Positions 14,594 to 43,778 of a stretch of 64,000 nt of DNA are shown here, piece by piece (the first letter of the stretch is position 1; each line of letters begins with the position of its first letter). The position numbers and the translations under genes are program-made. The DNA lies in IMG/VR virus record IMGVR_UViG_3300020578_000043, positions 1-64,000 of that record. The stretch is one strand, 5' to 3'. The notes under the pieces were generated by a model. The model saw nothing but the letters and a program-made list of their open reading frames with translations. It was not told where the DNA came from and did not search any database. The DNA comes from a virus.

Positions 14594-17500
14594 TCAAACG
14601 AACTGAACGCCCGCATTTGTGACGATGAAGTCGATGGCGATGAATTCGATCGCTCTTGTCGGGACCACAACGATCCTTCCATTTAAACGATTGAGATCGA
14701 CATCTTCTTGTGTGTTGTTCGTTTCGTTCATCACGACCTGGAACGCTTCGATACCTGCCTGCGCTTGGATGAGGCTCAATTGAAGCGTAGAGTCAGCAAC
14801 GAACTTATTGCGAACCGCCGGCGTGTTCTGCTCGAACACGATCCTGTTTGCTATGTTTATGATCAATCTCTTCACCTCGAGGAGGAGGCGTCGAACGTTG
14901 ACTCTATCAAGAGCCGACTTCCTGATCTGCAGAGTCTTTTGACCGTATATCACGAATCCAAGACGTGGGAACGTCGCGATCGGATTGATGCGTGCATCGT
15001 AGAGTCGATCTCTATCTGACACATTCAATCTGACCTCTACGTTGTTGACGAAGTCAAGAGCTGCGCGGTTGAAACCGGCCGGCGCAAACCATGGGTATGC
15101 ATTCCTGTCGTTGAATCCTATCGCACCCAGTGCTGCGACAGAAGCCGGTACCTTGACATAGCGGTTGTTGACGGCATCATTAATGTAGACGTTAGGGAAG
15201 TATGTCGCAACGTAGTTGTTGTCGAATGTCCTGTCCTCAAACGTCGATGCAGTGTTCTCTATGTTTATCTTGGCAGTCGAGTCATCATAGATGCGATTGT
15301 TGTTGTCATCATAGTTCGGAAGATCCATAACATACATTGAGAGGCCGTAATCACGAACCTTCTTTGATGTGTAGTTGGTAATGTAATCTTCACGAATTCC
15401 AGGAAGCGCCAACAGGTTGACGTTGACCTGCAATGCATCTGTCATCACGTCGACGGCAGTGATGTAAGAGTTGACTGAGTTGTTATCAACTCCAACACCG
15501 GCTTGATTGGTCGTCAGCCCAGGAGAGACGTATGTCGTTGATGCTGCGCCTAGAGGAGTCTCAAATGAGGTTGCCTTGTCATTCATTCTTGCGGCTGCTG
15601 AATCAAGGATGTTTAGACCGTCGAAACCTCCTTGCATGAATGACGTGAATTTAGCAAATGAAGAATACTTGTTGAATTCATAAGGCTGCCCGTTCGACAA
15701 CAGAGATGCAAAGGTGATACGATTTCCTAGAACCGGATCATTGATCGTGTAGTTTGACGGATCGACATTCGCATTTCTGACGTATGCAGCTTCTCTCATG
15801 TGAGCTCTGATCGTTCCCGTCAGTGCTGATATCGCGGTCGCTGAGAATGCAACCTTGGACAATGAGAACTTGTTGTTGTTCAACACGTCAGCGCCAGATC
15901 CTGTGACGAGAACGTCAAGCTTCTTGATGCCAGAGAACTTGGTGAAGCTCTCGAGCAAAGGATTCTTGACTTCTGTCAAGTTCGCATTTAGAGGTACATC
16001 ATTTCTCTCAAACTTGACACCCCAATAGAACTGAGGTGATGCTGCCTCTTGAGGGCCGGGGCTTCCGTCCCAGCTTGTCGTTGAAGGAATCTCGCCCTTT
16101 GTGACCTTAAAACGGTAAGGAACAGGAGGAACGATGGATTGCGAAAGTATGCCTGACGATGGAACGTCAAACACACCTGCAAGCCTCTTTGCTCCTGTCA
16201 CACCATCTGATAGAGAATCATTCGTCTTTATGACCTCGTGACCTCTGAATCCGAAAGGTAGAGATTTTGCAGGAACCTTCTTGTCCTCGACCGCAGTCGG
16301 TATGATGACCCTAACGAGCTTGGAAACGTTGGCATATTTACCGCTTGTAATGACTCTACGTTCGCTGACAATGTCTTGATCAAAGTCGTACGTCACCTTG
16401 CGGTCGCCGATCAACTTACCGATGTAGTTGTCTGCATCAGGATTGAACGAACAGTTGACGAACTCCTCTAGAATCTGAGGGTTGATGTCTGTGTCATTCC
16501 AATCGCGGATCTGAACGTTGAACGTTCCGTATTCATCAGCTTCGTTCTCAGACACCTTAAGGTTTGCTATCGAAACCTTGTACAGGCTGTTGGCATATGC
16601 TCCATCATCAAGAGCCTCTAGGGCGAAAAGATCATACTCAGTCGTGCCGAAAGGCTGAGATATGAAGTGTGGAGTCTTCGGCGTGGTAAAGCGAGTGTCA
16701 AAACCTCCGAATGCATTTCTAAACACGGTTGAAGGCTCTCCAGATACGTTGCTGGTGTTTGTTGATCCCGACAGGACTGCGACGTAATCGTCATTGACGA
16801 CAGTGGCAATCTCGTCATCAACGGCAAAATCTGCATACAACAAGTGTTGGTACTGAGCAAATTTCTCTGGATCCCTGTTAAGAACCTTACCGAAGTAATC
16901 ATCGCTGCTGGGATTCATTGATGCAGTGTAGACCTTGACACCTGGAAGCTTGTCATCGAAAGCAAAGTTAGATCCCAACGTAGAGGATATGACTAGCTTA
17001 AACTTACCTAGTTTAACCAATGCAGCATCATCGAGCGTCGTGGCACCGACAAATGCCGAAGGAACCAATTGATTACCATCAAGCACCATCATTCTAGCAC
17101 CGGACGCCATCATGACGACACCACGGACGAGATTCATATTGCTTGACTGCGAACGTGAATCATTGTCCGTAAAGATCGGCATGCCGTATGCCTCACTAGC
17201 TTGCAGGGTGTGATCTGCAACGAGGTACTGCACTGATCCAACGTGACGGCCCAATGCATCATGGGACGCTACAGATCCTTCTATTTTGAATCCAGCGTTT
17301 CTAACTCGTCCTGTCGATACGGTCGTTGAGATGTCCGTTGTGCTCTTGTTTGCACCAGCTCCAAGAACTCTCATGAACGTCAACGCAGTACGATTCTTCA
17401 AGAACTCATTAACTGCATACGGACCAAACTTCTTCGGATCTAGATCTCCAAAGATGCTTGTGAATTCATTAAAACTCGCGACGGCGACGGGAACGAAAGC

Positions 17501-17623
17501 AGGACCCTTATTCGATGTACCTATCACTCCTGCAGGAACCCCAACGGGACCTGACGGTGGCGGGACCCTTAACTCAATCTCACGCTCAAAAAACCCAGGA
17601 GACCTAAAAACTTGCTCGGCCAT
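14594..17623 (-). CDS. 18: Tail sheath protein, paralog 1
   Basis: 1009 residues and the most divergent of the three sheath paralogs. The N-terminus (GVPAGVIGTSNKGPAFVPV) and the C-terminal block (NVRRLLLEVKRLIINIA, then GRIVVVPTRAIEFIAIDFIV) mark it as a sheath protein, while the middle aligns only in patches with the other two. The start at ATG 17623 follows AAGGAG. It comes directly after the gp15-like gene, as gene 18 follows the neck genes in T4-like layouts once 16/17 are moved away. It may be the ancestral sheath, with paralogs 2 and 3 forming specialised segments or decoration (inference). Confidence 0.88.
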   Translation of the reverse strand: MAEQVFRSPGFFEREIELRVPPPSGPVGVPAGVIGTSNKGPAFVPVAVASFNEFTSIFGDLDPKKFGPYAVNEFLKNRTALTFMRVLGAGANKSTTDISTTVSTGRVRNAGFKIEGSVASHDALGRHVGSVQYLVADHTLQASEAYGMPIFTDNDSRSQSSNMNLVRGVVMMASGARMMVLDGNQLVPSAFVGATTLDDAALVKLGKFKLVISSTLGSNFAFDDKLPGVKVYTASMNPSSDDYFGKVLNRDPEKFAQYQHLLYADFAVDDEIATVVNDDYVAVLSGSTNTSNVSGEPSTVFRNAFGGFDTRFTTPKTPHFISQPFGTTEYDLFALEALDDGAYANSLYKVSIANLKVSENEADEYGTFNVQIRDWNDTDINPQILEEFVNCSFNPDADNYIGKLIGDRKVTYDFDQDIVSERRVITSGKYANVSKLVRVIIPTAVEDKKVPAKSLPFGFRGHEVIKTNDSLSDGVTGAKRLAGVFDVPSSGILSQSIVPPVPYRFKVTKGEIPSTTSWDGSPGPQEAASPQFYWGVKFERNDVPLNANLTEVKNPLLESFTKFSGIKKLDVLVTGSGADVLNNNKFSLSKVAFSATAISALTGTIRAHMREAAYVRNANVDPSNYTINDPVLGNRITFASLLSNGQPYEFNKYSSFAKFTSFMQGGFDGLNILDSAAARMNDKATSFETPLGAASTTYVSPGLTTNQAGVGVDNNSVNSYITAVDVMTDALQVNVNLLALPGIREDYITNYTSKKVRDYGLSMYVMDLPNYDDNNNRIYDDSTAKINIENTASTFEDRTFDNNYVATYFPNVYINDAVNNRYVKVPASVAALGAIGFNDRNAYPWFAPAGFNRAALDFVNNVEVRLNVSDRDRLYDARINPIATFPRLGFVIYGQKTLQIRKSALDRVNVRRLLLEVKRLIINIANRIVFEQNTPAVRNKFVADSTLQLSLIQAQAGIEAFQVVMNETNNTQEDVDLNRLNGRIVVVPTRAIEFIAIDFIVTNAGVQFV

Positions 17624-17697: not shown

Positions 17698-19047
17698 TCA
17701 AAAGTCTTTGGTCACGTGATAGGTAAGACCACCGAGCAACTCATCAGGAGTTAACGGCGCCTGATTTGATTTATTGGACCCTGGTTGTGTCACTGAACCT
17801 GGTTTTACAATGGACTCTCCAGACGACTTATTGACAGAGTATACTCTGACGTATCCAGTTTGAGATTTCCCGTCTAATCCGTTCGATGTTACTTTTAGGT
17901 ATTGAGGAAGATTTTGCCGTTGTGTTCTGTTGGACAATGCAGGATCGATCATTACGTTTGGATCCTTCGGGTCATAGTTTCCGATTCCTGTCCTTCGTTG
18001 ATCTGATCTCAGGTTTTTTTCTGCAGAAAGAGGTAACGTCGGATCGTCCGATCCAAGAAATGGATCATTGACGACGTTCGGTAGTTGATCTTGAACTGAA
18101 TTTGATGACGTTCCTACGTCAAAGCTTACAACAGGAGATGAAACGTATCTCTTGATCGGTATTCCTACACCAGGTTGCTGGGTCGCAAAGATGTACGCTT
18201 TAACATTGACGTTAAACTTATACTTGATGATTCTCTCTTCTTGACCCATCTCATCATAATTTCCTTCAGGGTTGTAGGAGTTACCTTCGACCATGGCAAG
18301 GAACCAGTATCCCTTAGATGTGTTTATTCTCCAAGAATTTCCTTGAGGTAAGAAAGAAGAGATCAACTGTTCGATCAACTGATTCATGTGTTGTGTGTAC
18401 TGAGTCCACATGCTGACTTCATAGTCTATCGTGCAGAACTGAGGCGCAGGTATGACTATCGTCTCATATATGTTGTTCTTCTTGATGTCTGCAAGCCAAG
18501 CTCCGTCCCTAAATGTGGGGTCTGTCTCATCCGCCCCGACCTCACGCTCAGTTAAGAGTTGGCCTTCGGCGTGGTCAGAATTAGGATCGACAGCAACGTT
18601 TTTCTGGTTCTTCAACAAGAACCTGTTGATCAGATTTTGATAACCCCTGTCGGACTTGTCTAACCTTCTGTGAATCACGATCTCATTTGTCTGCTGATTG
18701 ATGCCACGACCGACTATGTCTGACGTGGCATCTTGAGTTATGTTCGTCCGCGCGATCGTTACCAGGGGAAGTATCAAAGAATTGTTTCGATCCCTCAAGG
18801 CTCGTTTTTTCTTCAACAATGCCCACTTTTCACCTGATGCGAAGATGACAGGAACCTTCTTGGGCTCTGCATTATTTCCTTCAACTTGCAACTTAATCTC
18901 ATTTTCAAACAATTTAAATAGAGCAACGTCGACATCCTCTATGCCTACTGGTGCGATAGACAGATCAGGTATACCTTGATGCGTGTCGGCATTAATCCCG
19001 ATGACGCCGAAGGTAGACTGACTCTTTGAATTAAAACGTGTTGGCAT
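17698..19047 (-). CDS. 15: Tail sheath terminator / tail completion protein, gp15-like
   Basis: 449 residues from the ATG at 19047. An in-frame GTG at 19053 is possible, but it overlaps the upstream stop and has no better ribosome site. The pattern resembles T4 gp15, which caps the tail and joins it to the neck: a KVPVIFASGEKWALLKKK segment, ILPLVTIART, later APQFCTIDYEVSMWTQY, an IEQLISSFLPQGN helix and a final KYKFNVNVKAYI strand. T4 gp15 is 272 residues; the extra length here is a charged insert near residues 110-190 and a Ser/Asn/Pro-rich C-terminal extension. Gene order (gp13-like, gp14-like, this gene, sheath) matches T4 13-14-15 and supports the call. Confidence 0.7.
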   Translation of the reverse strand: MPTRFNSKSQSTFGVIGINADTHQGIPDLSIAPVGIEDVDVALFKLFENEIKLQVEGNNAEPKKVPVIFASGEKWALLKKKRALRDRNNSLILPLVTIARTNITQDATSDIVGRGINQQTNEIVIHRRLDKSDRGYQNLINRFLLKNQKNVAVDPNSDHAEGQLLTEREVGADETDPTFRDGAWLADIKKNNIYETIVIPAPQFCTIDYEVSMWTQYTQHMNQLIEQLISSFLPQGNSWRINTSKGYWFLAMVEGNSYNPEGNYDEMGQEERIIKYKFNVNVKAYIFATQQPGVGIPIKRYVSSPVVSFDVGTSSNSVQDQLPNVVNDPFLGSDDPTLPLSAEKNLRSDQRRTGIGNYDPKDPNVMIDPALSNRTQRQNLPQYLKVTSNGLDGKSQTGYVRVYSVNKSSGESIVKPGSVTQPGSNKSNQAPLTPDELLGGLTYHVTKDF

Positions 19048-19049
19048 AA

Positions 19050-19715
19050 TCACTCATCATAGAAAGAACTTCCAGTTCCTGTAGAATCTCCCAATCCAGA
19101 AACCTCCCTAGGTCCTGACAACGGAGGATCAAGGACACCGTTCTTGACCAAGTCTCTAACGTCTGCAGTTGGGCCATCCTTGTTCTCAGCGACTCCTCTT
19201 TGTTGCACAAATGTCTCTTGAACGGCATCTGGATCTGCGTACTTGATATCCGTCGGTCCATTTGTGATGGCCTTAAACTGGCTCTCACGTACTCTAGTTC
19301 CCATCAATGAAACTCCATCGATGTTCTCTGCCTGGCCATAAATCGTGCGCATGTACTTGTATTCTGTGATCTCGTAGAAGATCGATCCGAATGAGAAGTA
19401 ATCGCCTATCGACGGATTCAACCCCTTCTCGACCATATCTCTGTGTTGTATGTAAACTTCCAACGTAAATTGAGAATCAATACCAAACTTCGTTATCTTC
19501 GTCTCGTTCTGAAACTGTGCGTTTACAAGAGCCTCTACGACGATCGGATTGTCAAACACTTTCTGTAGAGCCTCGTCATAGACCTCATGAGACTGAGTCT
19601 TCGTCTCTGAGATGGGATAGTAATAGATCTTTTGACCGATGACGTCCTTGACGATCTCTTTTGTGAGATCTGAAATGAAGTTGATCTCTCTGGGTGTGAT
19701 GAATAATCTTGCCAT
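19050..19715 (-). CDS. 14: Neck protein, gp14-like
   Basis: 221 residues. The segment KITKFGIDSQFTLEVYIQ followed by PSIGDYFSFGSIFYEITEY resembles the core of phage neck protein gp14 (PF11649 type), which forms the connector between head and tail. The C-terminal 60 residues are Gly/Pro/Asp-rich and probably disordered. It sits between gp13-like and gp15-like genes with gaps of 6 and 2 bases, as in T4. The family call rests on this core plus gene order; alone the similarity would be modest. Confidence 0.58.
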   Translation of the reverse strand: MARLFITPREINFISDLTKEIVKDVIGQKIYYYPISETKTQSHEVYDEALQKVFDNPIVVEALVNAQFQNETKITKFGIDSQFTLEVYIQHRDMVEKGLNPSIGDYFSFGSIFYEITEYKYMRTIYGQAENIDGVSLMGTRVRESQFKAITNGPTDIKYADPDAVQETFVQQRGVAENKDGPTADVRDLVKNGVLDPPLSGPREVSGLGDSTGTGSSFYDE

Positions 19716-19721
19716 GGCCTA

Positions 19722-20909
19722 TCAACCTATCACGATTCCCTTGCCTAGAGGCATGGGTATGTATCTCAACTGTTTCTGCATGTTTTCTGCTGCAAGAGCG
19801 TCAGCTTCCAATAGCTTCTGATGGGTCAGGTTAGCCAAGAACTCTTTCATTTGAGTCGTCAACTTTTCTTTATCTTCACGAGACTGGGTCAACAAGTCAG
19901 AGCCGTTTAGTTGTAGATCTGCATTTGGAATAGGAATCGTTTGAAATTTTGATCGTATGAGTCCTAATAGCTCTTTGCATAGAGCCAGGGTGTACTGACG
20001 AATCCATTGTTTTCCAGGTTGATTTATTGTGGTGAAGGGAATGTTGCCAAAGGGTATGTTGCTTGGTCCTGATATTCCGTATATCGTGTCATCTTCATAT
20101 GATGTTGGATTCAAGGGATCATGAGGTTCCATCACCTTTACGAACATCTTACCCATCTGAAGATCTGATGAAGGTATGGGATAAATCCTTAGATTGCTTC
20201 CTATGACATCATAACTGTATTGAGATCTTCTGACTCTGAACGCAGTCTCAAGCATTCCTCTTCGCAGAACGTCTTCAAACACAGGCAACACATAAAACAC
20301 AGTTGAGTTAACGTATGATTCATAGTTAAAGTTTGTGGCAAGAAAATTTGTGATGTTCGATGCATTGAGAAGGAACTGCTGCGCTGCAAGAGGCTCAAAG
20401 TGAAATATCTCGACTATCTTTAATTTTCCTTTTCTTCCAGCTGGCAACGTACTGTAGATAGAGCTACCTGACAGGCTTCCAGAAGCGACCTTAAGATCTT
20501 CATACAGGTTATAATCCTGTTTATCCTTGATCAGGTCGATGTAACCTAACGTGGCGTCAAAAGATCCTCCTACATATGCTTCCGTCGCATATGGCTCTGC
20601 CATTCTTAGCAGGTATTCTACTGTTCTCTTGGCATATCTGTTCGTTAGGTCATTCGAACCTGTAGGAAGACCCATGACGTTCGTCAGATCTGACGTTATC
20701 TTCATTTCATGTATCAAACGTGAATATTCACAACATGCTTCTTCGAAACATGCCCAAATCTCTTTCTTTGTCAACTCTACTGACAGGACATCGTCACCTA
20801 GCTTTCGTTTGACGAACGTCACCATACCATCGGCTTCAGTCTGAAAAGCTGAATCAGAATCAAAGAAACCGAACGGCGTGGGGCTTATTGTTGAGGCGAA
20901 TGTTGTCAT
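19722..20909 (-). CDS. 13: Neck protein, gp13-like
   Basis: 395 residues (T4 gp13 is 309). The C-terminal half carries the pattern typical of gp13-like neck proteins in marine T4-like phages: QWIRQYTLALCKELLGLIRSK, then PIPNADLQLNG and a charged helix. The N-terminal half has KRKLGDDVLSVELTKKEIW and a Tyr/Glu-rich region of the kind seen in head-tail connectors. The start at ATG 20909 follows GGTGA. It is first in a tight run of gp13-, gp14- and gp15-like genes. The exact gp13 assignment is inferred; a generic connector protein is the fallback. Confidence 0.55.
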   Translation of the reverse strand: MTTFASTISPTPFGFFDSDSAFQTEADGMVTFVKRKLGDDVLSVELTKKEIWACFEEACCEYSRLIHEMKITSDLTNVMGLPTGSNDLTNRYAKRTVEYLLRMAEPYATEAYVGGSFDATLGYIDLIKDKQDYNLYEDLKVASGSLSGSSIYSTLPAGRKGKLKIVEIFHFEPLAAQQFLLNASNITNFLATNFNYESYVNSTVFYVLPVFEDVLRRGMLETAFRVRRSQYSYDVIGSNLRIYPIPSSDLQMGKMFVKVMEPHDPLNPTSYEDDTIYGISGPSNIPFGNIPFTTINQPGKQWIRQYTLALCKELLGLIRSKFQTIPIPNADLQLNGSDLLTQSREDKEKLTTQMKEFLANLTHQKLLEADALAAENMQKQLRYIPMPLGKGIVIG

Positions 20910-21363: not shown

Positions 21364-22152
21364 TCAAAGCATCTTATAGGCTTCAAAATGCATTCCATCA
21401 GGTCTATTTGGAAACCATCCGCCCCAATAGAATCCATGGTCATAAGCTATGCCGACCAATTCTCTCACTGAGCCAGTGGCTCCCCGTAAAGCAGGTTGAA
21501 CGCCGAGTTGATTCCATTGAACGTTGATGTCAAACGCCGTTCCCCAGGCATGGTTTGATAAAGCTGTCCTTGACCCTCGAATGAATCTAGGAGCCCATGT
21601 TCCTCCCCATGTCATGATCAAGTATGTCAATCCTGCAGAGTGCCATGCGTCAAATAGATCAAGGAACTGTTTGGACAGCGCTGAATGAATCGTCACGTTG
21701 CCTGATTTTGAGAATCCAGGAATGCTCGTCAAACGTGGGATGTTGACTGTCGTGATGTTCTTCTTTGCCCAATCGCCGATGATCGATATTCCTTCTGGGT
21801 TCGACGTCGTCGGGGCAGGCGTGAAAGAGAACTTTCCAAACATCTTCTCTCTATCAATCGGATTTAGAGATCCATGATTTGGAGGCTGAGGCCAGTTAGG
21901 TCCATTTATGTCCGCCGTTGGATCATCCATCAAGGGAAAGCCACACTGAAGAGCAGCAGAGATCGTTTTTGAACCGACAACGCCATCAGGGGTGAGACCT
22001 TTCCTGTTTTGAAAGTACTTGGTCTCTGTTTCAGTAAATGCATCAAAATCGCCATTGACGATGATGTGGCTGTCTGCAACCAAACCCCTAAGGAAATTTT
22101 GCCACTTTTCGACCTGAAGGCCTGTCGAACCCCTGCGTAAGATCTGCATCAT
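21364..22152 (-). CDS. Endolysin: peptidoglycan-binding domain plus M15 peptidase
   Basis: 262 residues. Residues about 5-70 form a PG_binding_1-like domain (LRRGSTGLQVEKWQNFL, DGVVGSKTISAAL). Residues about 150-262 form a D-Ala-D-Ala carboxypeptidase / L-Ala-D-Glu endopeptidase domain of family M15, with the zinc motif SNHAWGTAFDIN (H201, D208) and the C-terminal GMHFEAY (H255). It should cut peptide stems or cross-links of peptidoglycan. No signal peptide or membrane anchor is seen, so export would need a holin, not found here. A place among neck genes also allows a virion-associated lysin. The ATG at 22152 follows GAGGT. Confidence 0.85.
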   Translation of the reverse strand: MMQILRRGSTGLQVEKWQNFLRGLVADSHIIVNGDFDAFTETETKYFQNRKGLTPDGVVGSKTISAALQCGFPLMDDPTADINGPNWPQPPNHGSLNPIDREKMFGKFSFTPAPTTSNPEGISIIGDWAKKNITTVNIPRLTSIPGFSKSGNVTIHSALSKQFLDLFDAWHSAGLTYLIMTWGGTWAPRFIRGSRTALSNHAWGTAFDINVQWNQLGVQPALRGATGSVRELVGIAYDHGFYWGGWFPNRPDGMHFEAYKML

Positions 22153-24347: not shown

Positions 24348-25949
24348 TCATTTGCTGTTGATCAATCCTGTGATCATCGACACGGAGTTTCCATACTCTG
24401 AAGTCTTGTTTGAATCCCCACGCGCGGTGGCATATACCGCTGCAGTGGATGAGAATGATGACATTTGATCCGACGTCTTTGATGAATCATCCAATCCCGA
24501 AGCGGGATTGTATCCGACTGCATTCTTTCCTGACATTTTGTTTGCATAGACGTGACCGAACCATCCGTTCTTGATGTAACCCTTTGGATCCATCACGTAT
24601 GTCCAATTACAGGCATCAGGAGTCGCATCAGGCCATGTCGATCCTTGAAGCGGAGTATGGGGTGTGTCGCCGTATGCAACGAACACCGTACTCTGATCGA
24701 GTCGTTCCGTGGGATTCTCAGGATCAACCTGTTGAGACAGGTAGTTGTAGAATCCATTCAACACCTTGCCTAAGTGCTTCGTGGTATTTCTACCTTGGTT
24801 CATCAAGGTCATAGAATCAAAAGTAACGTGTGGATCAGTGAAGGTCGTGTCGCTCGTCGGACCAGGAGATAGAGCTACGATGGCTGTCTTGGACAGACCG
24901 AGCGTGAATGCCTTTGCAACGACGATCAAGGTTCTACCAAATTCTTCAATGCCCTTACGTTGCGCAGGAGTCATGTACGAAGAAGATGAGTTTAGACCGT
25001 CAATCATCTCTTGAACTCCAAAATCGATTAGATCTTGACTGGTCGGAGTCAACTGAGATGCAAAATTGAGACCGATGATCCTTGCAGCATTCTTTGTGAC
25101 TTGCATCTGCGGTGCCCACGAAGTTCTATTCGATGACTTACGAAGTCCTAGTAACGCCTTGTAATATACCTCAAACAGCTCTTGATCTGCCTTGGATGCT
25201 AATGCAAACTGACTTGCGGCGCTGTTGAACAGATCAATCATTCCTGTTGAACTTGGAACAGTTGCGACCTCAGGAGCACCAGGGGCTCGGCCATATTTCA
25301 CGGGATCGATACCTAAAACTGGAACTATAGCTGATGATCCAACTGCACCTAAAGATGCCAATGCAGCCTGCATTGAAGAATTTCCTGAAAGGGCAACCTG
25401 CGAGGCAGGAAATTCCGTATGGGTCTCATCCTTACCTGACATGAAAGCAGAGACAGGATACTTTGGAATTCCTGTTGCATGATCAAACCATGGAGCATCT
25501 GGACCGTAGAAGAATGACCTATCTCCTCCTGACCATCCTTTCACGCCGTTAGGAAGCGTTGGCATTACATTTCCCTTGCCCCATGTATAAGTTCCTCTGT
25601 ATCCGTTAGCCGGATTGTATCCATATTGTTGTGTGTACAGGTAGGAAGAGAATCCACCGAAGTTAGAAGTCAATCCTGAGACGTTGGCATTTTGACATGC
25701 CTTGAAACCAACATCTGCGACAGGCCATAACTCTTGAAACCAAGCTTGTGAACCGTTCGGGGCAGGTACGAGCAATGATCGTCCGTATGTCGATCCTGCA
25801 GCTTCTGCTAGACCTGTGCCTCCCTCATCAGAAAGAAAATTCAGCAAATCTGACCTTGATATTCCCACTGCTGCGGCCATCACACCGCACATCTTTAAAA
25901 AGCTTCTTCTGCGGTCGTTGCGTAGGTCCTTTAGCTTCCAATTGGTCAT
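24348..25949 (-). CDS. Tat-exported DUF1501-like protein
   Basis: 533 residues. The N-terminus carries a twin-arginine motif (RRRSFLKM, residues 13-20) before a short hydrophobic stretch, so export by the host Tat system in folded form is likely. The C-terminal part has strand-loop patterns like DUF1501 / alkaline-phosphatase-fold proteins (TVFVAYGDTPHTPLQG, TWPDATPDACNW, NGWFGHVYANKMSGKNAVG), usually found in bacteria rather than phages. No complete catalytic metal set can be named. It is last of a three-gene cassette, 12 bases after a lipoprotein gene, with a good ribosome site (GGAGAG) at ATG 25949. It looks acquired from a bacterial host; the substrate is unknown. Confidence 0.6.
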   Translation of the reverse strand: MTNWKLKDLRNDRRRSFLKMCGVMAAAVGISRSDLLNFLSDEGGTGLAEAAGSTYGRSLLVPAPNGSQAWFQELWPVADVGFKACQNANVSGLTSNFGGFSSYLYTQQYGYNPANGYRGTYTWGKGNVMPTLPNGVKGWSGGDRSFFYGPDAPWFDHATGIPKYPVSAFMSGKDETHTEFPASQVALSGNSSMQAALASLGAVGSSAIVPVLGIDPVKYGRAPGAPEVATVPSSTGMIDLFNSAASQFALASKADQELFEVYYKALLGLRKSSNRTSWAPQMQVTKNAARIIGLNFASQLTPTSQDLIDFGVQEMIDGLNSSSSYMTPAQRKGIEEFGRTLIVVAKAFTLGLSKTAIVALSPGPTSDTTFTDPHVTFDSMTLMNQGRNTTKHLGKVLNGFYNYLSQQVDPENPTERLDQSTVFVAYGDTPHTPLQGSTWPDATPDACNWTYVMDPKGYIKNGWFGHVYANKMSGKNAVGYNPASGLDDSSKTSDQMSSFSSTAAVYATARGDSNKTSEYGNSVSMITGLINSK

Positions 25950-25961
25950 TTGTTCTCTCCG

Positions 25962-26993
25962 TTATTGACAAGAATGAGCAGCGCTTAACAGCGTTGCGAC
26001 GGCAATGACTCGTTTCTTTGTTAGATCAGATGAGTCACCCACCTTCGCCTTTTGAACGATCAAGTTGCATAACAACATGTGATCATCAGTCGCCGGGATA
26101 CCTATGAGGCAGCTTACTGTCTCTTCGACGCATGATCCGTCAGCAGGATCGAACATGGGTCTATTCTTTCCACCCAACGTGCATGCTGGTGCTTTAGAAG
26201 GATCACCAATGTTTGCAATGATCTGCGGAGCGGATTGAATGAACACGTCCATCATTTTCATTGCAGATGCAGTTGAATGCTCTTCTTTTTCTCCAAGACG
26301 AGAATCAAGCTTGGGATATCCCAATGCATCCTTAGCTGTGAAGTACAAGTAGCCTGCCGTTGACGGTTTAGATACACAATACCCATCGGCTGCATCTGGT
26401 GAGTTGTTTCCGACATCGAGGCAACCTCTGTTGTTCTGATTGAGCTTGTCGTCTTGGTTGCAGAAGCAAGACTCATTTGCTGGGCAAAGCGGATCATTTG
26501 TGCCGTTGGCGTCAGTCACAGCCATCTCGCATGCCGCGCCGCTACCACCGAAGATGCTACCTAACGTCATCGTCTGACCAAAGACGCTGACTTGCGTCGT
26601 ACGAACATCTGAGACATTTCCAGGAGGAATGCTGACCCCTCTGCTTCTCAAGAACGTTCCGAGCTGGGCATAAGAGGGTTTACGACATCCATGCAATCTT
26701 GACATGATCTCATCAGCAGCAGGAACTTCAAATTGAGGAAGAGGATCACTCATCCCAGTTCCTGTTGAGACCGTCGCCTGAGGGGTTTCTGAAGATCCTC
26801 CCATTCCGCTTGTAGTGGACGACGAAGTGACTGCTATGACAGTCGAGTCAGTCACATGTTGAGGGTCTTCAACGCTTGGACAGTCATTTGCTCCAACGTC
26901 AGGTGCCGTTGATCCGCAAGAATTGACCCATAAAAATGTTGCAAATACTCCAAGCAGTGACCATAACAGGTTTTTTGTACGTTTTTTTTGCAT
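25962..26993 (-). CDS. Cys-rich predicted lipoprotein
   Basis: 343 residues. A basic start (MQKKRTKN), a hydrophobic core (LLWSLLGVFATFLWV) and NSC at residues 24-26 form a lipoprotein signal with Cys26 as the lipid site. A Ser/Thr/Gly linker follows (about residues 48-85), then a Cys-rich domain with many paired cysteines (CEM, CPANESCFCN, CVEETVSC), suggesting disulfides in the periplasm or on the surface. It starts one base after the stop of the upstream lipoprotein region (stop 26997, ATG 26993) with a GAGG ribosome site. No catalytic motif is recognised. The shared linker style with its neighbour suggests a common site of action. Confidence 0.65.
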   Translation of the reverse strand: MQKKRTKNLLWSLLGVFATFLWVNSCGSTAPDVGANDCPSVEDPQHVTDSTVIAVTSSSTTSGMGGSSETPQATVSTGTGMSDPLPQFEVPAADEIMSRLHGCRKPSYAQLGTFLRSRGVSIPPGNVSDVRTTQVSVFGQTMTLGSIFGGSGAACEMAVTDANGTNDPLCPANESCFCNQDDKLNQNNRGCLDVGNNSPDAADGYCVSKPSTAGYLYFTAKDALGYPKLDSRLGEKEEHSTASAMKMMDVFIQSAPQIIANIGDPSKAPACTLGGKNRPMFDPADGSCVEETVSCLIGIPATDDHMLLCNLIVQKAKVGDSSDLTKKRVIAVATLLSAAHSCQ

Positions 26994-26996
26994 GGC

Positions 26997-28475
26997 TTAG
27001 AACCTCGTGAAGTCATCTGAAATCAGGACCGTGCGTAGTACCTGTTTTAAGTTATATCCGTTACCCTTAAATTGTGCAACTAGCTTGGACAACGTCACAA
27101 TCTCAGGATTCGGATCCTTCCTATCAGGTAGACTCACCCAGGATCGACCACCCACCTCGGTGATGTCAGGTCGTCCCATTGCATAGTTCCACGCTCGTTT
27201 CACCGCACATTCGATGACCTCATCGTCTTTAGACATCCGTTGACCTAACTCTGTAAGGTTTGACGCAGATCCAGACGTCTCAATGCCGTCGACCCTCATC
27301 ATCTTCTTCCATGCAGTTCCGTTCTGGCCACCGTTTGGGCATTTTGAAGGTTCGATGCACAACCAATCGGACAACTTTGCTCGAGGTGAACCGTTCACCG
27401 GAACGAACACCGAGTATTCCCCTGCTGGTGTCAACATCTGGAAGATTCCCTTTGAGTCAAATTGGCTGAACAAGGGCGCTCTGTGATTCCACGTTGAGTG
27501 ACAGTTGGCGCAGACGTTGCTAGAATTGTAATCATGAAAATCTACCCGACCTCCGTTACACTTACCAGCAATCTCGTTAACGGGCCACTTATTGTTGTAC
27601 CCAGGAATGGATTTTTGATCTCCGCACGGTGGATCAACCGGAGGTTGATCGGTCGGCTCACCGCCTGATTGTTCATTACCGTTTTTGCACAGGAATGTCT
27701 CATGAAAGAAACGATTCCTCCTGAAGGACAGGTTGCCGTAGTACAGGCTTTGAGCACCAGGATCTGTCAAGATTCCTGAATGATTCATCCCGGCAGGAAG
27801 ATTGCTACAAGACCCATCAACAAAGGTGTTGCTTGCAGGATTAAAAGTAGGACATGTATTAGACTGTTGAGTGAGGATGTTACGCCAATCTTTTCCTTCA
27901 TAGACGACCTTTGCCGCAAATGATGGAGCAGTGTCACGAGTCGGTTCACCTGCCGTCGTCGATGCACCGCCCATCTTGAACGTATATTTGAAGAACTCGA
28001 CCAGAGTCGCAGCGAACCGCGGATCGGCAAGCTTCTTATCGATCAATTCCTCATACTTCGCAGCCTGCACGTCGGGAGGAAGATCACCGAGTTCATAGAT
28101 CTCTGACAACGTCGGGACATCTCCAACTAGAAGAATGCTAGCCGTACGAAGAGCTTCTGAGTAGTCGGTTTCCCTTTCGTCTAGTTCTGTCATCTCTTGC
28201 TTCTGTTCTTGACTCGAACCTGTCGAAACCGTCGTCGTCGAGGGTGAGGTCGTGACGCCTGACACTGTCTCTGCAGAAGTTGAAGCGACGGTCGTCTGGG
28301 ATGAGACGTCAGACGTCGAAGGGACATGCGGGGTGGGACAATCTTCAAAGACAGCCGACGTGTCGCCGGCCAGCTTGTAAGGATTCTGACGTTCACAACC
28401 GTAGATCGACAAGGTACTTGCAAGACCAACCGAGATCAATCCATGCTTGATGATATCTTTCTTTTCCATAGCCAT
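26997..28475 (-). CDS. CXXCH-containing predicted lipoprotein (bacterial DUF1585/DUF1549-like)
   Basis: 492 residues. A lipoprotein signal ends at Cys27 (STLSIYGC). A Ser/Thr-rich linker spans about 52-95. Then comes a helical domain (ALRTASILLVGDVPTLSEIY...KYEELIDKKLADPRF) like the DUF1549/PSCyt2-type proteins of Planctomycetes and delta-type bacteria. A single CANCH motif (residues 322-326) could bind heme c, and the C-terminus (KGNGYNLKQVLRTVLISDDFTR) resembles DUF1585. Redox-type periplasmic lipoproteins like this are bacterial; a phage copy is odd. No clear ribosome site is seen at ATG 28475, and a 136-base gap precedes it. First gene of the exported cassette. Confidence 0.6.
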   Translation of the reverse strand: MAMEKKDIIKHGLISVGLASTLSIYGCERQNPYKLAGDTSAVFEDCPTPHVPSTSDVSSQTTVASTSAETVSGVTTSPSTTTVSTGSSQEQKQEMTELDERETDYSEALRTASILLVGDVPTLSEIYELGDLPPDVQAAKYEELIDKKLADPRFAATLVEFFKYTFKMGGASTTAGEPTRDTAPSFAAKVVYEGKDWRNILTQQSNTCPTFNPASNTFVDGSCSNLPAGMNHSGILTDPGAQSLYYGNLSFRRNRFFHETFLCKNGNEQSGGEPTDQPPVDPPCGDQKSIPGYNNKWPVNEIAGKCNGGRVDFHDYNSSNVCANCHSTWNHRAPLFSQFDSKGIFQMLTPAGEYSVFVPVNGSPRAKLSDWLCIEPSKCPNGGQNGTAWKKMMRVDGIETSGSASNLTELGQRMSKDDEVIECAVKRAWNYAMGRPDITEVGGRSWVSLPDRKDPNPEIVTLSKLVAQFKGNGYNLKQVLRTVLISDDFTRF

Positions 28476-29064: not shown

Positions 29065-30492
29065 TCACGATAAATCGATGACGTATATGTGTGATCCACA
29101 TCCATAAATCCTTGAGACTCTCGCCTCAATTTCAATCTGACGTTCTGACTTACCACCTTTTGCTCTAAACTTGAACCTATCGTAACGAAGTTGGTTATCA
29201 GTGTACCAATAATCTATAGTCGTTGATCCTAGAAAAGAAAACCCTACAGATTTATATCCGCCCCCTTCTCCCACACGTCTATCGACGTACGTCATGATTC
29301 CGCGGTATCCGTTTTTTGCACACCACTCTTTGGCGCGTTTCACCAGCTTAGACAAGCCTCCAGGAACAGAGGTCGCTATAGCCGTGCTGTACCGAGCAAT
29401 TTCTAGGTAACCTTCGTACTTCTTACCGTTCCTCGGAGCACGAAGCGACAGGGCAGCAACGACGATACCGTTCTTATCTCTCAAGCCCCACGTTACCTTG
29501 GACGGGACGTATCCTGCGATGTGCGTAGAATCGAAGAAAGACCTTTGTTCTTGCGTGTTTAATTCGACGACTCTTGTTGACCACGTCTTACACCTGTGAC
29601 GATCCATGACGAGGCGGTGGCGGATCATTGACTCGCATATCGTTCGCTTGTCTCGCCACTCGTCCTCAAAGATCTGCAGCAATTTTATGCCGTTCTTCGC
29701 AGCGAGGACGGATTTTTCTAGATGCTTGTTCTTATCAAAAACCTCTTGTTTAGAACCTTCGCTGTGCCAGTACAACCCATGACACTCTATCCCAAATTTT
29801 TTGGAAGGAACATACACGTCGATTTCCTTCGGAGACATCGCCTTCTTATCACCTGATATCACATCAGGTGCTAGCGATTGGACGAATGTGAACACCTCTA
29901 GTTCCCAATTGGACTTGCTGAATGGGTGGCACTTATAACACCTGCTTCCTCTTTCAAATGCCTGCAGGGTCTTTGGCTGAACTTCTCCACATCGATTACA
30001 TTGAAACTTAAGGTACTGCTCTTGCCGAGAGATGTATTCTTCTAACGGAGTAATGAGGATGAACTCAGATTGCCTCTCCAATAATCTTTCTTTTAGCGTA
30101 GATGTTTCCAACATCTTACTTAAGCTAAGTTTTTCTAGGGTCTCTCGTGTATGGCGGCGACCATAGAATGGGTTACCTTCGCCTGTCATTGATTCAGACT
30201 GGCGCTTTATCCTCGGATCTGTATCCTTAGTTTGCCCCTTATTCCAAGCTTCGGCCTTTCCGCCACGGGCTCCGCCTTCTTTCATAGCGAGACGGGAATG
30301 GTCTTTGCAGAATCTTTTAAAAGAAAAAGAAACGTATCTGACGGAGGATGAACACACTTCGCAAACAGGTTTTTTACCTCCGTGGTATACTTCAACAGTG
30401 TAATCCTCTGATGACAGACCGTGAATTGACCTGATGTGGTTTGTCAGTTTCTTTGCATCATCATGTCGAAAGTCACATAGCCTACAGTCCAT
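29065..30492 (-). CDS. Free-standing homing endonuclease (Vsr/EDxHD-like) with zinc fingers
   Basis: 475 residues. In order: a C2H2-like finger (C3, C6, H19, H24), a second Cys/His cluster (44-65), a NUMOD3-type DNA-binding motif (GEGNPFYGRRHTRETLEKL, about 104-122), a CxxC...CxxC ribbon (165-188), and a PD-(D/E)XK/Vsr-like nuclease core (EIDVYVPSKKFGIECHGLYW with D225, E236, H238; IFEDEW at 274-279). The C-terminal half (GYLEIARYSTAIATSVPGGL, TYVDRRVGEGGGYKSVGF) resembles the GNAT-like part of Hef-type phage homing enzymes. Such enzymes cut related phage genomes and spread their own gene. It lies just after the capsid terminator with its own promoter. Confidence 0.8.
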   Translation of the reverse strand: MDCRLCDFRHDDAKKLTNHIRSIHGLSSEDYTVEVYHGGKKPVCEVCSSSVRYVSFSFKRFCKDHSRLAMKEGGARGGKAEAWNKGQTKDTDPRIKRQSESMTGEGNPFYGRRHTRETLEKLSLSKMLETSTLKERLLERQSEFILITPLEEYISRQEQYLKFQCNRCGEVQPKTLQAFERGSRCYKCHPFSKSNWELEVFTFVQSLAPDVISGDKKAMSPKEIDVYVPSKKFGIECHGLYWHSEGSKQEVFDKNKHLEKSVLAAKNGIKLLQIFEDEWRDKRTICESMIRHRLVMDRHRCKTWSTRVVELNTQEQRSFFDSTHIAGYVPSKVTWGLRDKNGIVVAALSLRAPRNGKKYEGYLEIARYSTAIATSVPGGLSKLVKRAKEWCAKNGYRGIMTYVDRRVGEGGGYKSVGFSFLGSTTIDYWYTDNQLRYDRFKFRAKGGKSERQIEIEARVSRIYGCGSHIYVIDLS

Positions 30493-30611: not shown

Positions 30612-32507
30612 TCAGATGATGTTCATGTCGAGACACGTCACTGTTCCGAAGAAATCGCTGCGAACCATTTTCTTACCGTAGCGAGTCATCACACCCTTAC
30701 GCGGTGTGAAATCTTCCGGTGCGAAGATGGTCGGAGTGACGATGAGCGGAACGTACGGGGCGTAGACGTAGCCGGTCTCGAGGTAGCTGCCGCCCTTGTA
30801 GCCGACGAGGATCTTGTTTCTGACGAAGTAAGGATCCTTGTAGACTGTGAAGCGGTTGCTGAGAGAGCCGATTGCCTCTGCTCCGATTGTGAACGGAGAC
30901 GCGACTTGACCTTCACCGTCGATGGAGAACTTCGGCTTGTAGAGCACCGAAGACTCGAGGACCGTGGCGACGTCCGGGCCGCAAACGAGGAAGTTTGCAG
31001 AGCCGCGGAGTGTCTTGCGGTGGATGGTGTTGGCGACGTCGATGATCGTCTCGACGAGGGTCTCGTACCACTCACGAACTGTACCTGTGAAGGCCGGTCC
31101 GATTGAGAGGGATGAGGCAAGTGTGACCGGTGAACCGGTTGTCTTGTTAACGAACCTGCCTGGAGCACGGCTCCAGTAGTAGTTCGCGCCGTTTGCTTGT
31201 GTGACGAGGTCATTGAGGATCTCGCGGTCGATCTCAAGAGCAATCTGCTCAGAGAGGATCGAGGTGAGCTCGACCTCTGCATCCATTGAGTGGTATGCAT
31301 TGAGGTCTTGTGCGAGTTCCGGTGACCAACGAGCACGTAGCTTGCGGGTCGCCGCGGTGATCGCGAGAGACTCGATCTTGATGTCGATCTCCGGGATTGC
31401 CGGGGACGGTGTTGCACCGAAATCGGACTCGAACGACGGTACCGTGAGGGTCGCACCGGTTCCACCTGAATCAGCGCCGAGGGCAACGACTGAATCAGCC
31501 TTGGCAAAAGTAACGCGACCTGCACCGGCTGTCAATCCCGCCGAGCTGAGACCGTTTGCGCCCTTGACGACGAACTGAACGTGTGTGCCGTTCAATGCAT
31601 CAGGAGTGAAGTATGGAGCAACTGAGTTGCTGAAGTTTCCACGCTTGTTGAGGCGACGAAGGTTAAGAACGCCGCTTCCTCCTTGATATGTTTGACCCCA
31701 TGCCGTTGCATTTCCTCCTAAGCCGCTGAACATTGCGATTTGATCAACTGCGAGAAGATCTGCACCAGACAAAGCACTCGTCGGAACGTAAACGAAGAGA
31801 GCATCGAGAGCGTTGTTTGTGAGATCAGTCTCAACTTGGCTGTCGTAGTCAGCAAAACGACCGTTCGAACCCGAGAACATGCCACCCGAAGAAACGATAA
31901 GACCTGATGTCCATGTATCTCCATTGGTTCCGCCGTAAGCACCAGAATGAACTGTTGCTGCAGAGAAGTCTAGAGCTTGGAGGGAACCGGTAACCTTGGA
32001 ATAACCTGTTCCGACGAGGTCGTACATACCACCAGCTGCAAGAGATCCGGATTGGACTCCACGACCTGTGGGGTTGTTGTAGATAGAGGTACCACGTGAG
32101 TAGGTTGCCTCAGATGACTGACCTGCGGCCTGACCGACGTTGGTTCCGTAGGTGTAATCAAGATAGAAGATGAGGCCAGAGGGGAGACTCATCGGTTGGA
32201 TCGAGACGAGCTCATTGGCGACGAGGCCACCGAACACGCGGCGGACGATTGGGAAGGCGATGTTGCTAAAGCCTTGGATCTGTCCACCGTTGGCAACGTT
32301 GCCGCCGCCTGTTGAGAGAGCTGAGCTCTCCTTCAGGACCTGGGCAGCTTGGTTCTCGAGAAGTTGTGACATCATCTCGCGGCGTTGACCGTCGAGACCA
32401 CGGAGGAGACCGGTGCGGCTCCACTTCTCTGTCAAACGAGCACGCTCAGCACCGACGTGGCGTTCACGGATGCCTTGTGCTAACTGATCAATCGTAAAAG
32501 TCTTCAT
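30612..32507 (-). CDS. 23: Major capsid protein (T4 gp23 family)
   Basis: 631 residues from ATG 32507, which has an ideal ribosome site (AGGAGA); a longer frame upstream lacks one. The N-terminal 60 residues are a charged helix, and L-K-E-S at 58-61 matches the prohead protease site, so maturation after E60 is predicted, as T4 gp23 is cut after E65. After it come segments typical of the family (SNIAFPIVRRVFGGLVANELVSIQPM split over 76-101) and the C-terminal TRYGKKMVRSDFFGTV. The mature protein builds the HK97-fold shell. It is about 110 residues longer than T4 gp23, with Gly/Ser/Asn-rich inserts. A strong terminator follows. Confidence 0.92.
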   Translation of the reverse strand: MKTFTIDQLAQGIRERHVGAERARLTEKWSRTGLLRGLDGQRREMMSQLLENQAAQVLKESSALSTGGGNVANGGQIQGFSNIAFPIVRRVFGGLVANELVSIQPMSLPSGLIFYLDYTYGTNVGQAAGQSSEATYSRGTSIYNNPTGRGVQSGSLAAGGMYDLVGTGYSKVTGSLQALDFSAATVHSGAYGGTNGDTWTSGLIVSSGGMFSGSNGRFADYDSQVETDLTNNALDALFVYVPTSALSGADLLAVDQIAMFSGLGGNATAWGQTYQGGSGVLNLRRLNKRGNFSNSVAPYFTPDALNGTHVQFVVKGANGLSSAGLTAGAGRVTFAKADSVVALGADSGGTGATLTVPSFESDFGATPSPAIPEIDIKIESLAITAATRKLRARWSPELAQDLNAYHSMDAEVELTSILSEQIALEIDREILNDLVTQANGANYYWSRAPGRFVNKTTGSPVTLASSLSIGPAFTGTVREWYETLVETIIDVANTIHRKTLRGSANFLVCGPDVATVLESSVLYKPKFSIDGEGQVASPFTIGAEAIGSLSNRFTVYKDPYFVRNKILVGYKGGSYLETGYVYAPYVPLIVTPTIFAPEDFTPRKGVMTRYGKKMVRSDFFGTVTCLDMNII

Positions 32508-32553
32508 TGTTTTTCTCCTGTTGCGTATCAAAAAGTTGTTAGAAAGTTGTTGC

Positions 32554-34503
32554 TCACTTGCTGATGCCAGCGAGCTTTGCCCAACGCTCTGCCTCAACTC
32601 CCTCTGACAAGGTCTGTGTTGAAGCGGGGCGAGTTGCCTGTGAAGATGATCCGAACACGCGACCCTCTGTCACAGTCCTACGAGGCTTCACCAATGTCTT
32701 GGAGAGGCTCTCGTAAACGAGCTTCGCTTCGCGAATCGTCTCAGCCGCATCGAGTTGCTCAATTACCTGTGCCTTTTGGCGAGCAGTGAGCGACTCTGTC
32801 TGAAGAAGCTTATTCGTGAAGAGGAGCTTCGCGTTGAGCAGATTCGTTTCTGCCAACTTCTTGCTTAGCGTGTTGTCTGTGCTAGCACCAGGTTTGACGC
32901 GGCTATTTGAGCGAGCGTTGACTCCCTCCTTGAGGGATTGTGAAAGGTTATTGAAGCGAACGACTGAGCGATTGTAACGTTCGGCTGCTTCAGCGTATGC
33001 AGCCTTTAATTGAGCCGCACGGGAAGCTGCTTGTCTTGCTTCAACCAAAGTTGTAGCATCTTTTGTGGCAGCATAAAGCTTCTTTAATTGAGAAGCACGA
33101 AGACGTAATGATTCTTGAAGCTTGAGCTCTTTAGCCATTTGTAGACGAACTGACTCATTGGCAGGTTGTCTTTTCTGGACATTCTTGTCCTTGGTATTGT
33201 GCTCGTCGTTGTCTTTTGCTTGACCCATAGAAACTATTTCGTCCACATCAACTTCTAATAAGTCGTCTTCATCGAGGCATTGTTTAGCTTCCATCTTCTT
33301 TTTAGGTGCTTTAGCAGCAGCGGCTGAAGTTCCTTCATCACCACCGGCCTTATCTGTCTCATCCGTCATAGTAAGCTCGTCGAGATAAGCTTCAACTTTT
33401 GCCATGGCATCAATTTCATCCATGCCATACATTTCCTCGTCCATACCGCATGATGCTTCGGTAAGATCCATGTCTAAAGGTTCACCTTCTTCTTCGGCGC
33501 CGCCGAAGTCATCGAACTCTTCAGGACCAGGACGTTCGCCTACTTCAAGTGCGCCTGATTCTGATTCGTCAGCTTCACGAAGAAGCTTCATGAAAGCGAT
33601 TTCACGACGAAGCATGTTTTCATCGATTTCAACGACGGCATCGTCATCAAGGCCCAGTACTTCAAGAAGACCTTCTTCTTTTTCTGGTTCACCTTCTTCA
33701 CCTGGAACTGCTCCAGCTTTAGAGGCTTCTTCTTCGCCTTCTTCGCCTTCATCAGGTTCTTCGCCTTCAGCGCCTTCTTCTTCTTCGCCCTCACCATCGA
33801 GGACGAGATCTACTGATGCATCATCAAGAACTTCTCCTAGGTCAACACCAGGAAGATCCAGTTCGATGGTAACCTTATCTTCATTTAGTCTTCTTTTCAT
33901 TGTTGTCTCCTGAAGCTTTTCTAGCTTTTCTAAACATTTTCTAACTTTCAAACCGTATCCTAACCTGGTGGTAGGATCATCAATCTTCTTGTCTATGAAC
34001 TCATAGATCACGTCGATCATGTCTCCCAAGTGAGACACATTAGAATCAAACTCTGCTGATTCAGTGATTCGTGAGTCCACCTTCGCCAACGCCTCAACCA
34101 TTTTTTCGACGTAGCGTAGCTTTTGTTCCATTTGGCCGGTGGATGACGGCATCTTGGCAGAGACGAGGTTTTTTACGGAAGCATCGAAAGACTCAACCTT
34201 CGCTGAAGGTGCTAGTTGAGCAAGGTCGACGACTAGTTTTTTTGTTGTACGTCTTTTAACTTCTTCGACGTCTTTACCATTGGGTTCAACTATAAGTTTT
34301 TCGCCTTTATCACCACAGCGATTGACGACTTCTTCTTCTTCCACTTCAAGATCTTCGACCGCTTCTGCCAAAAGTTCTTTTTCAATCAGCTCCCGAATGC
34401 GAGGAGCGACCGCCTCGACGACAGCACGTTTCGCATTGTCTTCGGCGATTTCCTTGACCTTCTTCAAATCCGCAATTGCTTCTTCATAGAGCTGCTTTGA
34501 CAT
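32554..34503 (-). CDS. 22: Acidic prohead scaffold/core protein (gp22 position)
   Basis: 649 residues, against 269 for T4 gp22. It sits directly before the capsid gene and after the protease cluster, as gene 22 does. The N-terminal 220 residues are charged helix (SKQLYEEAIADLKKVKEIAE). The middle (about 220-420) is extremely Glu/Asp-rich, and the C-terminal third is basic, Gln/Ala/Leu-rich coiled coil ending in RWAKLAGISK. Several [L/V]-x-E-[A/S/G] sites (LTEA, LQES, LKEG, VTEG, LSEG) would let gp21 degrade it to peptides after assembly. No catalytic motif is seen. The scaffold role is inferred from position, composition and cleavage sites. Confidence 0.7.
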   Translation of the reverse strand: MSKQLYEEAIADLKKVKEIAEDNAKRAVVEAVAPRIRELIEKELLAEAVEDLEVEEEEVVNRCGDKGEKLIVEPNGKDVEEVKRRTTKKLVVDLAQLAPSAKVESFDASVKNLVSAKMPSSTGQMEQKLRYVEKMVEALAKVDSRITESAEFDSNVSHLGDMIDVIYEFIDKKIDDPTTRLGYGLKVRKCLEKLEKLQETTMKRRLNEDKVTIELDLPGVDLGEVLDDASVDLVLDGEGEEEEGAEGEEPDEGEEGEEEASKAGAVPGEEGEPEKEEGLLEVLGLDDDAVVEIDENMLRREIAFMKLLREADESESGALEVGERPGPEEFDDFGGAEEEGEPLDMDLTEASCGMDEEMYGMDEIDAMAKVEAYLDELTMTDETDKAGGDEGTSAAAAKAPKKKMEAKQCLDEDDLLEVDVDEIVSMGQAKDNDEHNTKDKNVQKRQPANESVRLQMAKELKLQESLRLRASQLKKLYAATKDATTLVEARQAASRAAQLKAAYAEAAERYNRSVVRFNNLSQSLKEGVNARSNSRVKPGASTDNTLSKKLAETNLLNAKLLFTNKLLQTESLTARQKAQVIEQLDAAETIREAKLVYESLSKTLVKPRRTVTEGRVFGSSSQATRPASTQTLSEGVEAERWAKLAGISK

Positions 34504-43481: not shown

Positions 43482-43778
43482 CTAAAACAACATATTGACG
43501 GTCATCTTTTTTCCACCCTTTAACTTTTCGTTGACTTGTTCCTTCGTTGGGCGCCATCCTTCTTTCCATGCAGGTTGATTTGGACGGGCCCAAAAAGTCT
43601 CACAATGTTCGCAACATTTAAATTGGTGGTACGACTTTTCATCTGCGGCTGTGCGTAACAGGTATTCACATACTGGACAAGCCAGCGGGATCGTTTCTTT
43701 TTCTTGCTCTGGTTTGATGACAAAGAAGCCATCACAATCTTTTATCAACCTATTGTTTAGGTAAGGACGCCACATCAT
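43482..43778 (-). CDS. Zinc-ribbon protein
   Basis: 98 residues. Two pairs, CPVC and CEHC, spaced by about 24 residues (CPVCEYLLR... FKCCEHCETFW) form a likely zinc ribbon. The C-terminus is basic (KLKGGKKMTVNMLF). Its ATG overlaps the stop of the SbcDC-like gene (ATGA), so the two are translationally coupled. Zinc ribbons of this size bind nucleic acid or protein partners; a cofactor of the recombination nuclease is a fair guess from coupling, but no family is recognised. Confidence 0.6.
   Translation of the reverse strand: MMWRPYLNNRLIKDCDGFFVIKPEQEKETIPLACPVCEYLLRTAADEKSYHQFKCCEHCETFWARPNQPAWKEGWRPTKEQVNEKLKGGKKMTVNMLF

Follow-up and report, generated by a model that had tools for sequence, protein, structure and literature searches.

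A three-gene Polyangiales operon encoding a predicted heme c lipoprotein lies between the capsid and neck genes of large T4-like lake phages

The DNA analysed here (the window) comprises positions 1 to 64,000 of a 78,727-base IMG/VR virus record (IMGVR_UViG_3300020578_000043). Judged by its genes, the record is that of a T4-like phage with a contractile tail: PHROGs recognised terminase, portal, protease, capsid, neck, sheath stabilizer, sheath and baseplate hub genes, and the mapped genes are all on the minus strand. Three ORFs, which we call p3, p2 and p1 in their order on that strand, occupy 24348-28475 with intergenic gaps of 3 and 12 bases (Table 1), as expected from an earlier note, made from the letters alone, that had described a three-gene cassette with 1-12-base spacing. 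The trio sits between the genes for the major capsid protein and the neck (head-tail adaptor) protein, and the PHROGs matches of these two genes bear out the capsid-side and neck-side placement given in that note. Promoter scans at the locus gave matches at chance level and did not find a T4-like late promoter motif; terminators were also scanned.

Table 1. Features of the trio, its slot and related loci. Positions are those of the window unless a locus (L number) is given.
Feature	Position	Strand	Evidence
p1, 533 aa, Tat-exported, remote relative of DUF1501 (alkaline-phosphatase-like)	24348..25949	-	TAT_signal_seq, hhalign
Twin-arginine motif RRRSFLK of p1	25893..25913	-	RRxFL[K/R] in 39/40 p1 sequences
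p2, 343 aa, Cys-rich probable lipoprotein with Ser/Thr-rich linker	25962..26993	-	conserved Cys pattern, cellular orthologs in same operon
p3, 492 aa, lipoprotein	26997..28475	-	Pfam PSD2 over cut-off, lipobox, conserved in phage and cellular relatives
CANCH heme c attachment motif, p3 residues 322-326	27498..27512	-	one CXXCH per p3, 34/34
Lipobox Cys27 of p3	28395..28397	-	PS51257-type pattern
Major capsid (head) protein; one slot border	30612..32597	-	PHROG 138, E 6e-74
Neck / head-tail adaptor protein; other slot border	19722..20909	-	PHROG 211, E 2e-11
NUMOD3-containing probable homing endonuclease, capsid side of slot	29065..30492	-	Pfam NUMOD3 27.2 bits, cut-off 20.4
Sheath stabilizer	17698-19053	-	PHROGs
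Tail sheath	14594-17623	-	PHROGs
Fourth operon gene, upstream of p3, for a lipoprotein with CXXCH in most copies	L095, L096, L097, L099, L101, L105, L106, L107, L109, L110		
Collagen-like GPT-repeat protein	L216 17306-18262; L218 11688-12662; L220 11794-12768		

The p3 protein has the layout of a lipoprotein in which a Ser/Thr-rich linker is followed by a PSCyt2-like (DUF1549) region, a PSCyt3-like heme c motif and a PSD2 (DUF1585) end. It scored 29.0 bits against PSD2 (PF07624; Pfam gathering score 25.8) but stayed below the gathering scores of PSCyt2 (PF07583; 19.7 vs 29.8 bits) and PSCyt3 (DUF1588, PF07627; 14.3 vs 27 bits). The earlier description of a lipoprotein with a CANCH motif and DUF1585- and DUF1549-like ends therefore holds, with the DUF1549 part below cut-off in this copy. 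The PSCyt2 cut-off was reached by the p3 of three cellular relatives (L098, L101 and L110), and a second type of phage trio (type II, described below) has a p3 over the cut-offs of both PSCyt2 (29.9 bits) and PSCyt3 (28.8 bits), with PSD2 not among its matches at E 0.1. At the C-terminal end, cellular and type-II relatives also match DUF1800 weakly. The single CXXCH is kept in every p3 sequence examined, phage and cellular, and its surroundings (CxNCHxTxNHxxPLF in the window copy) stay close to CxNCHxxxNHxxPLF across homologs. A CXXCH in an exported protein is the sequence mark of a c-type cytochrome, and p3 carries it as a predicted heme site. The window copy passes the PS51257 lipobox pattern, as do 12 of 14 phage copies in its strict form and 14/14 when Asn or His is allowed at -2. 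A PDB sequence search with the p1 and p3 profiles returned nothing usable.

The second protein, p2, matched no family in Pfam, PHROGs or NCBIfam. It contains 14 Cys residues in a pattern conserved among its homologs. Its lipobox-like Cys26 has Asn at -2 in the window copy, which consequently fails the strict PS51257 pattern; among phage p2 sequences 10/15 passed the strict and 14/15 a relaxed form. Of the earlier proposal of a Cys-rich second lipoprotein, the Cys content and the lipobox-like signal are thus upheld, while the strict pattern is not found in the window copy. The Ser/Thr-rich linkers that had been described as of one style are indeed alike, with 51% Ser plus Thr in p3 (residues 46-92) and 40% in p2 (residues 39-85), vs 14-15% elsewhere, and cellular operon copies have similar linkers.

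The p1 protein carries a predicted Tat signal (NCBIfam TAT_signal_seq, TIGR01409; 18.9 bits, cut-off 16.7), and its twin-arginine motif is kept in all but one of the phage and cellular p1 sequences taken together. The Pfam DUF1501 model (PF07394, gathering score 27) gave no match at E 1 for the window p1 or for four cellular relatives. Aligned by hhalign with true DUF1501 proteins of the same order, p1 gave 97.6% probability (E 1.4e-11) over 411 aligned, co-linear columns, that is, nearly its whole length, and the Tat motif, a DxH motif and a GDTP motif line up. The formal label of DUF1501 member was therefore dropped in favour of remote homolog; the Tat-exported, DUF1501-like protein of the earlier note survives in that form, although not as a direct Pfam match. 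The AlphaFold model of p1 had a pLDDT of 33 from phage sequences alone and 49 after homologs from metagenome-assembled genomes (MAGs) were added. A Foldseek search with this low-confidence model (pLDDT 49) gave only non-significant matches (best E 0.04, range 0.04-1), topped by sulfatase- and alkaline-phosphatase-like structures (sulfatase, sulfamidase, autotaxin, YejM and LtaS), which agree with a DUF1501 relationship and may lend it weak support.

Searches of IMG/VR with p1 and p3 showed that at least 25 distinct loci, on contigs of up to 211 kb, carry a trio like that of the window (type I), so that the same trio does recur in other phage genomes, as the earlier note had suggested looking for. 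Identity across these loci is 80-100% for p1 and about 70-100% for p3, and the order p3-p2-p1 between capsid and neck genes is found in every contig of sufficient length. No match to p1 or p3 was found among the 50,697 annotated phage records of INPHARED. Reading frames are intact in the aligned phage copies of all three genes, and median dN/dS is 0.060 for p1, 0.123 for p2 and 0.076 for p3, these medians being taken over pairs with a finite estimate, with most synonymous distances saturated. Such values indicate that the phage trio is under purifying selection. The three-gene cassette is also beyond chance: dozens of homologs, from phages and cells alike, keep the gene order, the export signals and the heme motif. 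The neck protein served as the query for relatives with and without the trio. One relative (L196) has homologous capsid and neck genes and no trio, and two further large relatives (213 and 278 kb) gave no p1. Given these relatives that lack p1, this type of virion can do without the cassette.

Where does the trio come from? GTDB genomes scanned with p1 yielded ten loci at 49-76% identity. All ten are in MAGs whose titles read Polyangiaceae, Polyangia, Myxococcales or Deltaproteobacteria, most of them of lake origin. There are several p1 loci per genome in Polyangiales MAGs, and a p1 homolog was present in 29/145 sampled genomes of the order. Among the loci read in these p1-positive genomes, p2 was found in all and p3 in nearly all, and the order p3-p2-p1 is kept wherever the contig includes p3. 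In one cellular copy (L043) the trio lies between a clpA-like ATPase gene and a beta-galactosidase-like gene followed by nuoN, nuoM and nuoL (names read from the sequences rather than from a family scan); L111 agrees with L043 on the right, next to the nuo genes, and L112 on the left, next to the clpA-like gene. We considered whether the MAG copies could be binned phage or prophage DNA. This was ruled out, since L043 stands beside clpA-like and nuoNML genes and the phage neck protein had no match in the MAGs searched. Deeper Polyangiales operons have a fourth gene upstream of p3, for a lipoprotein of about 400 aa that weakly matches cytochrome models and in most cases has one CXXCH motif or two; this ties the operon to heme c chemistry. 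This gene is missing from the phages and from the freshwater operons nearest the phage copies. GC content is 47-50% in the trio, 44% in the phage and 63-71% at the host loci. The trio is thus, by gene order and phylogeny, best described as a myxobacterial (Polyangiales) operon taken up by phages, and the earlier reading of bacterial-type, exported genes of families known from Planctomycetes and delta-type bacteria found its counterpart in a cellular operon with up to 76% p1 identity.

In phylogenetic trees the type-I phage p1 sequences form one clade nested among cellular p1 (support 98/98), and the type-I p3 sequences likewise form one clade among cellular sequences (support 99); in the p2 tree the phage copies also fall among cellular ones, with type-I phage monophyly weakly supported (51). 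The type-II trio was found in a related 200-kb phage (IMGVR_UViG_3300034101_006325, L215), directly after capsid and homing-endonuclease genes and ahead of the neck gene, and on two more contigs. Its p1 is 34% identical to that of type I, and its p1, p2 and p3 all fall in a cellular branch distinct from that of type I. A single phage origin of p1 with later divergence was rejected (AU test for one phage clade, p = 1.85e-6), and therefore at least two captures took place. In the phylogeny of the neck protein, the type-II phage falls together with type-I phages and the trio-less L196. The simplest account of the slot, leaving aside the order of events, would be capture, in-place exchange and loss. 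The NUMOD3 endonuclease beside the slot is matched by homologs in that position, at 75-95% identity in several type-I phages and at 63% in a type-II phage, and could drive cassette exchange. With intact frames, purifying selection and a place inside the cellular diversity, the genes have the features of auxiliary host-derived virus genes. From gene ancestry and habitat, the phages probably infect freshwater Polyangiaceae (myxobacteria); a comparison of 20 kb of phage DNA with seven genomes found no CRISPR spacer or prophage link to the host MAGs.

The trio resembles several known systems in part. Like the 'Planctomycete-specific' cytochrome proteins with PSCyt2, PSCyt3 and PSD2 domains (DUF1549, DUF1588, DUF1585) and a DUF1501 neighbour, it has a p3 that passes PSD2 (and, in cellular and type-II relatives, PSCyt2, with PSCyt3 too in type II), a CXXCH at the PSCyt3-like position and a DUF1501-like Tat protein as partner. 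It differs from them in that the window p3 is under the PSCyt2 and PSCyt3 cut-offs, and in being phage-borne with an extra Cys-rich p2. In freshwater Verrucomicrobia, PSCyt genes adjoin sulfatase genes, and some of the PSCyt genes include carbohydrate-binding domains (PMC5615132). DUF1501 proteins carry Tat signals and form operons with DUF1800, and such pairs are accompanied by chitin synthase (PMC5122149). The Tat protein p1 similarly adjoins p3, whose cellular and type-II relatives give a weak DUF1800 match, although p1 is not detected by the DUF1501 model, p3 is a lipoprotein with a heme motif, and no chitin synthase was noticed adjoining the trio loci read.

Among phages, the nearest parallel in habitat is that of the pmoC phages of freshwater lakes, large lytic phages with auxiliary metabolic genes (PMC7674155). 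In both cases host-derived genes thought to aid a host membrane or envelope activity are carried by large freshwater phages, but here a whole exported three-gene operon with no known enzyme function was captured at least twice and lies among head and neck genes. Ltp exclusion lipoproteins (PMC3952083) are also lipoproteins encoded by phage, and the trio's would likewise presumably sit on the host surface; the likeness is by description only, Ltp belonging to temperate phages of Gram-positive hosts, whereas the trio is enzyme-like with a heme motif. A Pseudomonas phage paper lists a weak DUF1501 match in a 61-aa protein (PMC5418858). We found no report of PSCyt, PSD or DUF1501 genes as a functional phage system, which, given incomplete literature coverage, is weak evidence; together with the lack of p1 and p3 homologs in INPHARED it agrees with the earlier statement that no phage system of this kind has been described. 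Large freshwater phages are already known to carry auxiliary genes taken from hosts, and what appears to be new is a recurrently captured, exported heme-protein cassette in an unusual location.

We consider it probable that a complete Polyangiales operon, captured at least twice by large T4-like lake phages, is redeployed as an envelope heme-c/DUF1501-type module late in infection. The sequences show a cellular origin, transfer as a three-gene unit, two captures in one slot and purifying selection, with the Tat signal and heme c motif conserved and lipoboxes in most copies. From its position, the trio would be read late, together with the structural genes. The products of p3 and p2 would mature into lipoproteins, the host cytochrome c maturation system would attach heme to p3, and host Tat would export p1 in a folded state. 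Together p1-p3 may form or top up an envelope-bound heme-c redox/alkaline-phosphatase-like (DUF1501-type) module, of a kind already present in the host in one to several copies. The activity of this module is a guess, as we know of no biochemical function for DUF1501, PSCyt or PSD proteins. The module's substrate might belong to the envelope or be extracellular, and may be a carbohydrate; the infected cell, with host genes being shut down, would thereby retain an envelope activity or surface state that it needs. A carbohydrate substrate of this kind is a fair guess from the sulfatase neighbourhood and carbohydrate-binding domains at PSCyt genes (PMC5615132) and from the company of DUF1501-DUF1800 with chitin synthase (PMC5122149).

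Three other explanations were weighed. The exported lipoproteins and p1 could, late in infection, cover or alter a surface receptor, and so block superinfection or keep progeny from sticking to debris. Phage-encoded exported lipoproteins are a known exclusion class (Ltp, Streptococcus phages; PMC3952083), two whole cassettes alternate in one slot among related phages as if matching host types, and p2 has the highest dN/dS of the trio. We nevertheless think this unlikely: the conserved part consists of two enzyme-like proteins and strictly retains the heme motif; a blocker would be expected to diverge fast, yet dN/dS is 0.06-0.12 and identity to the copies in hosts reaches 76%; those copies would, on this reading, shut the phage out of every cell; and PADLOC models gave no match for the trio at E 0.1.

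Placement of p1-p3 on the virion, where they would decorate capsid or neck and act on the surface of the next host, had also been suggested in the earlier note, and the position of the trio between capsid and neck genes in every trio phage with enough flank speaks for it. T4-like virions assemble in the cytoplasm, with which the retained Tat signal, lipoboxes (of p3 especially) and periplasmic heme motif clash; moreover, PHROGs gave no phage family match for the trio, and L196 does without it despite homologous capsid and neck genes. This explanation is accordingly highly improbable to us. There is also little chance that the cassette is a passenger that the adjoining homing endonuclease spreads and from which the phage gains little. 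A NUMOD3 protein does adjoin both trio types, and cassettes are swapped or lost in place, but the frames are intact, the same three genes were captured twice, GC has moved to 47-50% from the 63-71% of the hosts, and median dN/dS is low, though with synonymous distances largely saturated. Of the three roles first proposed from the letters (remodelling of the envelope or its redox chemistry, a block on other phages, a place on the virion), envelope or periplasmic redox chemistry appears most likely on these sequences.

The redeployed envelope module that we favour may be put more specifically, if tentatively: a heme-c redox/DUF1501 complex on the infected-cell envelope might be an exchangeable, host-matched cassette, with the capsid-neck slot as a landing site where host paralogs are swapped, but we hold this to be somewhat doubtful. 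Repeated capture and maintenance suggest that the operon does something the virus needs in the infected cell. Exported heme-protein modules would join central metabolism among the things that lytic phages take from their hosts, and the trio makes Polyangiaceae likely hosts of large lake phages that are uncultured. DUF1501 proteins and 'Planctomycete' cytochromes are widespread exported families, and the trio offers a compact three-gene form for testing.

Several other genes of the record and its relatives deserve mention. The tail sheath ORF and the one in tandem with it (11465-14536), each of about 1000 aa, resemble each other N-terminally in relatives, so that the latter may be a second sheath-like gene. 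The portal ORF (37869-40991, 1040 aa) shows HNH-endonuclease similarity at about residues 188-275, ahead of portal homology at 457-856, and possibly carries an intein or inserted endonuclease. A single ORF of 1052 aa (43775-46933) matches SbcD-like phage families at its N-terminal end and SbcC-like ones as well, in the manner of a fusion of the two nuclease subunits. The endolysin-like gene at 21364-22152 combines a peptidoglycan-binding part with an M15 peptidase, and has the reverse orientation in some of the type-I relatives (L005, 6657-7439; L006; L012). In trio-less relatives, a gene for a collagen-like GPT-repeat protein lies near the neck gene, past the endolysin-like gene (Table 1).
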